The notes below the pieces were generated by a model. That model did not search any database. It saw only the letters and a list, made by a program, of their open reading frames with translations, and was not told where the DNA came from. A stretch of 64,000 nt of DNA from Rhodothermales bacterium. GTDB taxonomy: Bacteria; Bacteroidota; Rhodothermia; Rhodothermales; JANQRZ01. The translations under genes and the position numbers were made by a program. This document shows positions 22,823-47,799 of the stretch, in pieces. The stretch lies in NCBI GenBank assembly GCA_028284265.1, contig JANQRZ010000017.1, forward strand, positions 1 to 64,000, read 5' to 3'. Each line of letters starts with the position of its first letter. Position 1 is the first letter of the stretch.

Positions 22823-23395
22823 TCACCACGATTGATGTGTCGGGTGCATCCGGTCGAGGTGCCACCGGAGCGGGTTGTCACGGATGTATTGACGAGCGAG
22901 ATCTAACTCGTGCTCATTGCGAAGGACGCGCTCGAAGTAATTGCGCTGCCATGCGAATTCAGGGCACCCGTTCAGTCGGATGCGCCGCGTACCCCGGGCC
23001 TTGAACGCTCGCACGATTTTGCCCAGCGGGTCGCCTTCAGTCCTCATTGAAATCCACCGATCGTCGGGCGTAGGGGTTTGATTAATCAAACCCCTACGGT
23101 GCCGGTTGGCGTCCGGGGCGGATGTATCCACAATGCTGATGATGCCGTGAATGTGGTTGGGCATCACCACGAATGCATCGAGACGGATGTTGGGGTAGTG
23201 GCGAGGCAGATCGTCCCATACGGATTGCACGATTCGTCCAGACTCAGACAAGACCATCAGTCCGTCCTCCACCTCGCCGAAGAGGCACAGGCGGTGCTGC
23301 ACGCAGAGCGTGACGAAATACGCGCCCGGCTGTGAGTAATCGTAGCCGGGTAGCCGGATCGAGCGGCGGCGATGGTGAGCGGTATCGTAGGGCAT
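22823..23395 (-). CDS. REP-associated tyrosine transposase (RAYT, IS200/IS605-like Y1 family)
   Basis: From the ATG at 23395 the 190-residue protein carries the metal-binding HUH motif in VVMPNHIHGII and a candidate catalytic tyrosine in LARQYIRDNPLRW. The blocks YFVTLCVQHRLCLFGEV at the start and NYFERVLRNEHELD toward the end match RAYTs, which are domesticated single-strand DNA transposases that act on REP-type palindromes. No IS ends were seen. Between the HUH motif and the DPLGKIVRAFK block is an insert, RRGLINQTPT, encoded by a perfect 30-bp palindrome (23069-23098). An upstream start (23443) is possible but adds a basic tail. Confidence 0.88.
   Translation of the reverse strand: MPYDTAHHRRRSIRLPGYDYSQPGAYFVTLCVQHRLCLFGEVEDGLMVLSESGRIVQSVWDDLPRHYPNIRLDAFVVMPNHIHGIISIVDTSAPDANRHRRGLINQTPTPDDRWISMRTEGDPLGKIVRAFKARGTRRIRLNGCPEFAWQRNYFERVLRNEHELDLARQYIRDNPLRWHLDRMHPTHQSW
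23069..23098. repeat. Perfect 30-bp palindrome inside the RAYT gene
   Basis: CGTAGGGG-N14-CCCCTACG, where the 14 inner bases TTTGATTAATCAAA are themselves palindromic. It is in frame with the transposase. A second 30-bp sequence with the same outer 8-bp ends lies at 33292-33321. Confidence 0.85.
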
Positions 23396-32456: not shown

Positions 32457-33296
32457 ATGAAAACGGTTGAACTGGTCCTCCGCGTCCCGGAGCGCTACCA
32501 CGAGTTTCTCATCGCCGAACTGTCCGACCTCGACTTCGAGAGCTTCGCCGAGGACAATGACCGGCTGCGAGCCTATGCCCCAGCGACCCGCTGGAATGCC
32601 GCGAGCCGCGAACAGGTCGAGCACTGGCTCCGCACTCGCGACCTTCCAGACACTTTTGAGGAGCGCATCGTCGAAGACGAAAACTGGAATGCCCGGTGGG
32701 AGGAGACTATCCGACCTCTCGCTGTCGGGCGCTTCCTTATCAAACCGACGTGGGCCGAGGTGCCGCCCGAGCACGCCGACAAGGTGTTGCTAGAGATCGA
32801 TCCGAAGATGAGTTTCGGGACTGGCTATCACGAGAGTACGCGGCTCGCCCTCCGCTTCTTGCCCGGTCTCCTCGATGGAGGGGAAGCGGTCCTTGATGCA
32901 GGCACAGGCACGGGCGTTCTCGGCATCGCCGCGCTCAAGCTCGGCGCGGCCTCGGCGCTCGGATTCGACATCGATCCGTGGGCCTCGACCAATGCAACGG
33001 AGAACGCCCTCCTCAACGGCGTCGCTGACCGCTTCGAGGTCCGCGAAGGATCGCTCGATGTCGTGCCGGAGTCAGGCTTCGAGTTGGTCTTCGCCAACAT
33101 CAACCGGAACGTGCTCGTGGACCTGCTGCCTGGCTTCGCTGCCAAGCTCGCACCGCATGGCCGACTTGTTCTCGCCGGACTGCTTCGAACAGATCGGGAG
33201 ATGATGGCTGAGGCGATCCATCAGGCCGGATTGCACCTCTACGACGAGGCCACCGAGAACGAATGGTGGAGCGCAGTGGTGAAGAAAGAAGCGTAG
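32457..33296 (+). CDS. prmA: Ribosomal protein L11 methyltransferase
   Basis: The 279-residue product has the small N-terminal domain of PrmA and a SAM-dependent methyltransferase domain with motif I VLDAGTGTGVLGIAALKLGA, the preceding MSFGTGYHESTRLALRFL block and NINRNVLVDLLP. PrmA trimethylates L11 in the large ribosomal subunit. The stop codon TAG is the start of the 30-bp palindrome at 33292-33321 (GCGTAGGGG), so the repeat abuts or contributes the end of the gene. Confidence 0.95.
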   Translation: MKTVELVLRVPERYHEFLIAELSDLDFESFAEDNDRLRAYAPATRWNAASREQVEHWLRTRDLPDTFEERIVEDENWNARWEETIRPLAVGRFLIKPTWAEVPPEHADKVLLEIDPKMSFGTGYHESTRLALRFLPGLLDGGEAVLDAGTGTGVLGIAALKLGAASALGFDIDPWASTNATENALLNGVADRFEVREGSLDVVPESGFELVFANINRNVLVDLLPGFAAKLAPHGRLVLAGLLRTDREMMAEAIHQAGLHLYDEATENEWWSAVVKKEA

Positions 33297-33321
33297 GGGC
33301 ACGGCGTACCGTGCCCCTACG
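33292..33321. terminator. 30-bp hairpin repeat CGTAGGGG-N14-CCCCTACG at the prmA stop codon
   Basis: 13-bp arms CGTAGGGGCACGG (33292-33304) and its complement (33309-33321) with a 4-base loop. It overlaps the prmA stop and ends 7 bp before the stop of the convergent T9SS gene, so it may terminate both transcripts. The outer 8 bp and the total length are the same as for the palindrome in the RAYT gene. Confidence 0.8.
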
Positions 33322-37504: not shown

Positions 37505-37527
37505 AGCGGAGGTGCCTAGTGATCGAG

Positions 37528-37560
37528 AAGCCCCGACGACTATACTGGTCGTCGGGGCTT
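37528..37560 (+). terminator. Rho-independent terminator of the mrp-nifU operon
   Basis: AAGCCCCGACGAC and GTCGTCGGGGCTT form a 13-bp perfect stem with a 7-base loop, followed by CTTT, 24 bp after the NifU-like stop codon. Confidence 0.88.
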
Positions 37561-37583
37561 CTTTGTGCAGAAGCGACCGGGAA

Positions 37584-47763: not shown

Positions 47764-47799
47764 GAAGCCCCGAATCGGCAGTGGCTGATTCGGGGCTTC
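47764..47799 (+). terminator. Rho-independent terminator after the acylase gene
   Basis: GAAGCCCCGAATC and GATTCGGGGCTTC form a 13-bp perfect stem with a 10-base loop, followed by TGTTT. It lies 18 bp after the stop and just before the 3' end of the opposing tRNA gene. Confidence 0.85.

Follow-up and report, generated by a model that had tools for sequence, protein, structure and literature searches.

What is a palindromic repeat of the REP type doing inside the coding sequence of the very transposase that is presumed to mobilise such repeats, and is its presence an accident or a feature that has been kept? The question is raised by a REP-associated tyrosine transposase (RAYT) gene in the 64-kb window, the whole stretch of DNA analysed here (Table 1). 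The sequence CGTAGGGGTTTGATTAATCAAACCCCTACG is a 30-bp palindrome with 0 mismatches between its arms, it is the strongest inverted repeat of the window, and, with its GTAG feet, it is of the REP type. It stands in register with the codons of the minus-strand open reading frame, so that the in-frame segment RRGLINQTPT described in the first-pass annotation is indeed part of the protein. As single-stranded DNA the element folds at -13.7 kcal/mol (z=-8.4), and its pattern, with up to 2 mismatches allowed, is matched twice in the window, where shuffled sequence gives an expectation of 0.02. A literature search with GTAGGGGC returned nothing relevant.

Table 1. Coordinates of the RAYT gene, its linker and palindrome, and the related hairpin in the window.
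Feature	Position	Strand	Basis or remark
RAYT (TnpA-REP, subclass 2.4 / group 4) gene, 206 aa	22823..23443	-	ORF, NCBIfam REP_Tyr_transpos, motifs and fold match
Unstructured linker from the HuH strand to the helix preceding the Tyr half (residues about 105-139)	23027..23131	-	AlphaFold2 model
In-frame double-foot REP palindrome CGTAGGGG-TTTGATTAATCAAA-CCCCTACG	23069..23098	-	Codes RRGLINQTPT, residues 116-125
Second GTAG-type hairpin, centre CACGGCGTACCGTG	33292..33321	+	Foot supplies the prmA stop codon

The reading of this Y1 transposase as a RAYT, already proposed in the first-pass annotation, was upheld by profile, motif and fold. REP_Tyr_transpos is the sole NCBIfam match of the protein (E=1.8e-14), with a score of 53.9 bits (60.1 without the linker) that lies below the curated cut-off of 80 bits; this cut-off governs annotation and does not define subclass 2.4. 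The scores of 67-76 bits for the three group homologues scanned are likewise under it, so the model seems suited to other subclasses. Against Pfam Y1_Tnp, whose cut-off is 23, the protein scores 20.7 with its insert and 26.8 once the linker is removed. The HuH residues are found at 97-99 (MPNHIHG), WQ at 165-166 and the catalytic Tyr at 186 (YIRDNP); among 61 homologues, H99, W165, Q166 and Y186 are invariant and H97 is nearly so. The AlphaFold2 model (pLDDT 83) has a strand at 97-104 and a helix at 140-157, with pLDDT below 50 at 112-125 and 129-133, and the residues encoded by the palindrome fall within the unstructured linker that leads from the HuH strand to the next helix. In a fold search of the PDB its best match (E=5.9e-7) was 4er8, in which the E. 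coli RAYT is bound to a REP hairpin; IS608 and ISDra2 were also matched, and a sequence search of the PDB with the RAYT gave no match. The HuH motif and catalytic Tyr within a Y1 fold are those of a RAYT, or TnpA-REP, of the HuH Y1 transposases.

Motifs and insertion together assign the protein to subclass 2.4 of Quentin et al. 2018. The motifs of this subclass (NH[IFV]H, WQ and YIxNNP) appear as NHIH, WQ and YIRDNP, with one N->D change; the variable insertion between beta3 and alphaC corresponds to the unstructured residues; and a double-foot REP of the form GT[AG]G...C[TC]AC is carried in frame. Besides YIRDNP in place of YIxNNP, the window RAYT differs in its surroundings, since neither another inverted repeat of equal strength nor a flanking REP was found within about 1.5 kb on either side of the gene. 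In PMC6006769, REPs within 1 kb of the gene are described for the large majority of subclass 2.4, a trait that is usual rather than defining, and flanking copies are present in 21 of 73 homologues in our sample. Both the identity of the gene product, a REP-associated tyrosine (HuH/Y1) transposase of subclass 2.4, and its match to a cognate REP within the gene are almost certain. According to the same paper, double-foot REPs stand in frame between the HuH and the Tyr motifs of subclass 2.4 genes, and the subclass takes in the group 4 RAYTs of Bertels et al. 2017. The phenomenon has therefore been known since 2018, and the in-gene copy is not the oddity that it first appeared to be: an in-frame REP in the linker is the rule in this subclass.

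Related systems resemble this arrangement in part. RAYTs of other subclasses bind and cleave REPs as single-stranded DNA (PMC8266576), and the E. coli RAYT/REPtron (4er8; PMC8266576) has the same HuH/Y1 fold and a substrate composed of a GTAG motif beside a hairpin; unlike the window REP, however, E. coli REPs flank the gene, are bulged and have a single-ended foot, and no in-gene REP has been reported for them. Rickettsia palindromic elements and intragenic GTAG/CGTC REPs (PMC3733652) are likewise palindromic repeats read in frame in proteins, but their host genes are unrelated, whereas the carrier in the window is the presumed mobilising enzyme. In the IS200/IS605 family (IS608, ISDra2), a related Y1 HuH transposase recognises hairpins beside a guide tetranucleotide, although these hairpins lie outside the gene, at the ends of an element that moves as a whole.

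Pattern searches of the 3.69-Mb host genome, which contains a single RAYT gene, indicate that the palindrome belongs to a small repeat family. The 30-nt form occurs at 5 sites, against 0 for the reversed control, and GTAGGGG-N2-32-CCCCTAC at 20 sites against 2. The first-pass annotation would have attributed the link to chance had there been just two genomic copies; the genome contains three exact copies of the in-gene 28-mer and one more in which a single base pair is changed with compensation (T-A to C-G), so this is not the case. Its suggestion that the RAYT gene had been hit by a REP copy holds insofar as the same palindrome stands elsewhere in the genome, and fails insofar as a linker REP in frame is a subclass rule and not an accident. 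The identical 28-mers outside the gene are at C10:132560 and C17:74414; the latter occupies the same place in the relative G001 and is absent from G002. At the RAYT locus itself, the alignment of host and G001 covers the RAYT gene only, with the neighbours unaligned. Several host copies are located at the ends of open reading frames, where one or both feet supply TAG stop codons. The copies at C10:132560 and C17:74414 (L013, L135) lie between convergent open reading frames with feet that serve as TAG stops, on both strands at C10:132560.

The hairpin near prmA, CGTAGGGGCACGGCGTACCGTGCCCCTACG, has the same eight-base ends as the in-gene palindrome, as had been pointed out, and its GTAG foot provides the TAG stop of prmA at 33294-33296. 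Its 13-bp arms enclose an unpaired 4-nt centre, which makes it a hairpin rather than a perfect palindrome. We rejected the proposal that the two form one REP family: the ends agree but the centres differ, and the in-gene centre (TTTGATTAATCAAA) and the prmA centre match palindromes inside different RAYTs elsewhere, the prmA hairpin being at most 2 mismatches from the palindrome inside the RAYTs of G044 and G063. It is likely a relic of another palindrome family whose own RAYT is missing from the host genome. Two further hairpins of the window (37526-37562 and 47764-47799) have common ends, GAAGCCCCGA...TCGGGGCTTC, and different centres; they are possibly another palindrome family or terminators.

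The correspondence between enzyme and repeat extends to related genomes. Allowing up to 2 mismatches, the window palindrome was found in 2 of 196 related genomes, with 4 and 21 copies, and these are exactly the two whose RAYT carries it. G001 encodes three RAYTs with three different inner palindromes, represented by 21, 19 and 6 genomic copies, and the host, which has one of these three RAYTs, contains 4, 1 and 2 copies of the same palindromes. The in-gene palindrome thus matches a genomic repeat family, with one palindrome family per RAYT in the genus. To count copies more widely, we used genomes picked by protein similarity, not by palindrome, and scored exact matches to the 28-nt form only. 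Exact copies ranged from 0 to 41 per genome. In nine genomes (G044, G116, G178, G205, G214, G221, G222, G225 and G234), one of them a complete genome of 2.35 Mb, the only exact copy is the one inside the RAYT, and six of the nine still have no further copy when one foot mismatch is allowed. The single exact copy of G131 adjoins the RAYT gene, and that of G203 has the sequence of one found immediately beyond the linker in the RAYT reading frame of this genome. Five other one-copy genomes (G072, G199, G204, G217 and G227) have their copy elsewhere or unplaced, and their scanned RAYTs have no in-gene palindrome of the exact form.

The comparison was then extended to homologous genes, 137 in all, from relatives and from members of many phyla (Bacteroidota, Chloroflexota, Deinococcota, Pseudomonadota, Desulfobacterota, Nitrospirota, Calditrichota, Bacillota and others, according to record titles). 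Strong palindromes number 77, of which 74 lie within the HuH-Tyr linker, a region that makes up 22% of gene length; codon-shuffled genes yielded 0. At a looser threshold that admits looped hairpins, the linker holds 101 of the 106 top inverted repeats, and 25 of 136 shuffled genes reach this threshold anywhere. The strict threshold leaves 64 of the 137 homologues without a strong linker palindrome, many of them with looped or partial ones. GT[AG]G feet are present at both ends in 62 of 73 genes, and these 73 genes contain 55 distinct palindromes. Of the three frames of the element, the two open ones are in use, in 42 and 12 genes, and the one with TAG is used in none.

Comparison between homologues shows that conservation operates at the DNA level rather than the peptide level. 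Identical 28-mers are shared by gene pairs whose core DNA is only 49-70% identical, with third-position identity of 30-63%; closer pairs with the same palindrome also exist. In L020/L105 and L045/L120 the identical 28-mer is read in different frames, giving RGTACRAPT and VGARHAVPL in the first pair. The alignment of homologues called for in the first-pass annotation finds a palindrome kept at this place while the residues vary, and the peptide is not what is conserved. When palindrome family is mapped on a protein tree built from the core without the linker, 18 changes are required, compared with a mean of 32.4 and a minimum of 28 in 200 shuffles.

Several individual homologues add detail. In L061, L117 and L069 the in-gene feet are altered (GTTG...CAAC, GCAG, GTAAG); GTAG is retained by further copies present in the locus or genome of L061 and L117. 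The RAYTs of L026, from a relative of the same order, and L085, from Thermus scotoductus, have cores that are 83% identical and nearly the same inner palindromes, a likeness that suggests horizontal transfer. The L141 RAYT, which has no inner palindrome, is preceded by an intact CACGGCATGCCGTG palindrome about 77 bp ahead of the matched gene part (G004:C1:1248960). Many linkers that lack a perfect palindrome, among them L048, L056, L060, L063 and L080, code for peptides resembling GQAQGPAPT or GQPQGVAPT; these derive from looped hairpins, GGGCAGGC...GCCTGCCC, that are probably canonical single-foot REPs.

Our findings suggest that the in-gene copy has been kept for a role rather than by chance, and we assign a probability of about 0.72 to its being a kept cognate site, whatever that role is. 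The elements that are new here, namely the linker positioning across 137 homologues, the persistence of 28-mers in two frames, the tracking of palindrome family with the core tree, the sole copies and the match of one palindrome to each RAYT, all suggest such a site; the one-to-one match, the sole-copy genomes and the DNA-level conservation were not found in the excerpted text of Quentin et al. (PMC6006769) or in the other literature searched. In mechanistic terms, the RAYT would carry its own cognate double-foot REP, GTAG-GGG...CCC-CTAC, in frame within the flexible linker between its two catalytic halves. The linker tolerates the palindrome for two reasons: it has no fixed structure, and two of the three reading frames of the element are open. 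By analogy with the E. coli and Stenotrophomonas RAYTs, in which a GTAG guide stands beside a GC-paired stem, we infer that the hairpin serves as the enzyme's own single-strand substrate, and it may be retained because it functions with the RAYT protein. As to the specific role, the chances are about even that the copy acts as a resident source site, the most likely of the roles considered, which would travel with the transposase gene and from which the few genomic copies would be seeded. A resident source copy would explain why copy numbers are low, why the palindrome matches genomic families and why some genomes have a sole copy; the altered feet of some in-gene copies (GTTG, GCAG, GTAAG) better fit decay or self-protection than a source site.

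A resident source site has to be weighed against other explanations, the closest of which is self-regulation, whereby the hairpin in the gene or its mRNA would lower RAYT expression by slowing ribosomes or through binding or nicking of its own gene by the RAYT. The 82-nt mRNA stretch folds at -35.3 kcal/mol (z=-4.7), and the title of PMC8450116 reports control of a transposase mRNA in Pseudomonas by 5' UTR structure. The hairpin, however, lies deep in the coding region, where ribosomes unwind RNA, and simple RNA control needs neither GTAG feet nor a match to a genomic family; self-regulation would account for retention but not for the match to genomic repeats, and we regard it as unlikely, if less so than the remaining alternatives. 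A functionless copy would result if REPs inserted throughout the genome and, within the RAYT gene, survived in the disordered linker alone. This agrees with the AlphaFold2 model, with REPs known in other genes, perhaps in flexible linkers (PMC3733652), with the little impact on protein activity suggested by Quentin et al. (PMC6006769), and with ordinary mobility such as the lack in G002 of an intergenic palindrome common to the host (G000) and G001. The tracking of the core tree would also be expected if genomic copies of a RAYT's own family simply kept landing in its linker. The genomic pools are nevertheless tiny, as seen in the exact copy numbers: with 20 copies placed at random in 3.7 Mb, the chance of a hit in any one 600-bp gene is about 0.3%, yet more than half of the homologues are carriers. 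Nine genomes have their sole exact copy in the RAYT gene, and identical 28-mers persist although third positions are near-saturated. Neutral landing is accordingly improbable.

Template switching between the arms, a known route from imperfect to perfect palindromes, could keep the repeat perfect in the absence of any role. Related genes that differ by 1-2 base pairs mostly show changes on both arms, in line with such a process, in a count that includes the uninformative centre bases of odd-length palindromes. Host copies outside the RAYT's own family, on the other hand, are mostly imperfect (2/16 perfect, against 4/4 within it), a comparison that is partly circular because the family is defined by similarity to the perfect palindrome. 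Across genomes, 42/49 in-gene and 5/17 genomic palindromes are perfect; since the in-gene and the genomic set were drawn from different genomes, we keep these figures out of our main evidence. Template switching leaves the fixed position and the match to RAYT phylogeny unexplained, and we consider it quite improbable. Chance resemblance or a coding constraint on RRGLINQTPT has a negligible probability: chance is rejected by the number of matches in the window relative to shuffles, and constraint on the peptide by the two unlike peptides that one identical palindrome encodes in its two frames.

The origin of REP families and the way in which RAYTs are matched to their repeats are open questions in the field. 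A kept cognate site leads to a broader proposal, which we advance tentatively and at slightly less than even odds: genes of subclass 2.4 may keep their own target as a functional in-gene site, with enzyme and substrate carried from place to place on a single gene; this copy may found and specify the REP family, and the target could be read from the open reading frame. If the in-gene palindrome is the target of the enzyme, the sequence of each subclass 2.4 RAYT tells which substrate it acts on, and dozens of enzyme-substrate pairs would become available for binding and cleavage tests and for deriving a recognition code. Genomes with the in-gene copy alone would then represent REP families that are just arising or, alternatively, dying out.
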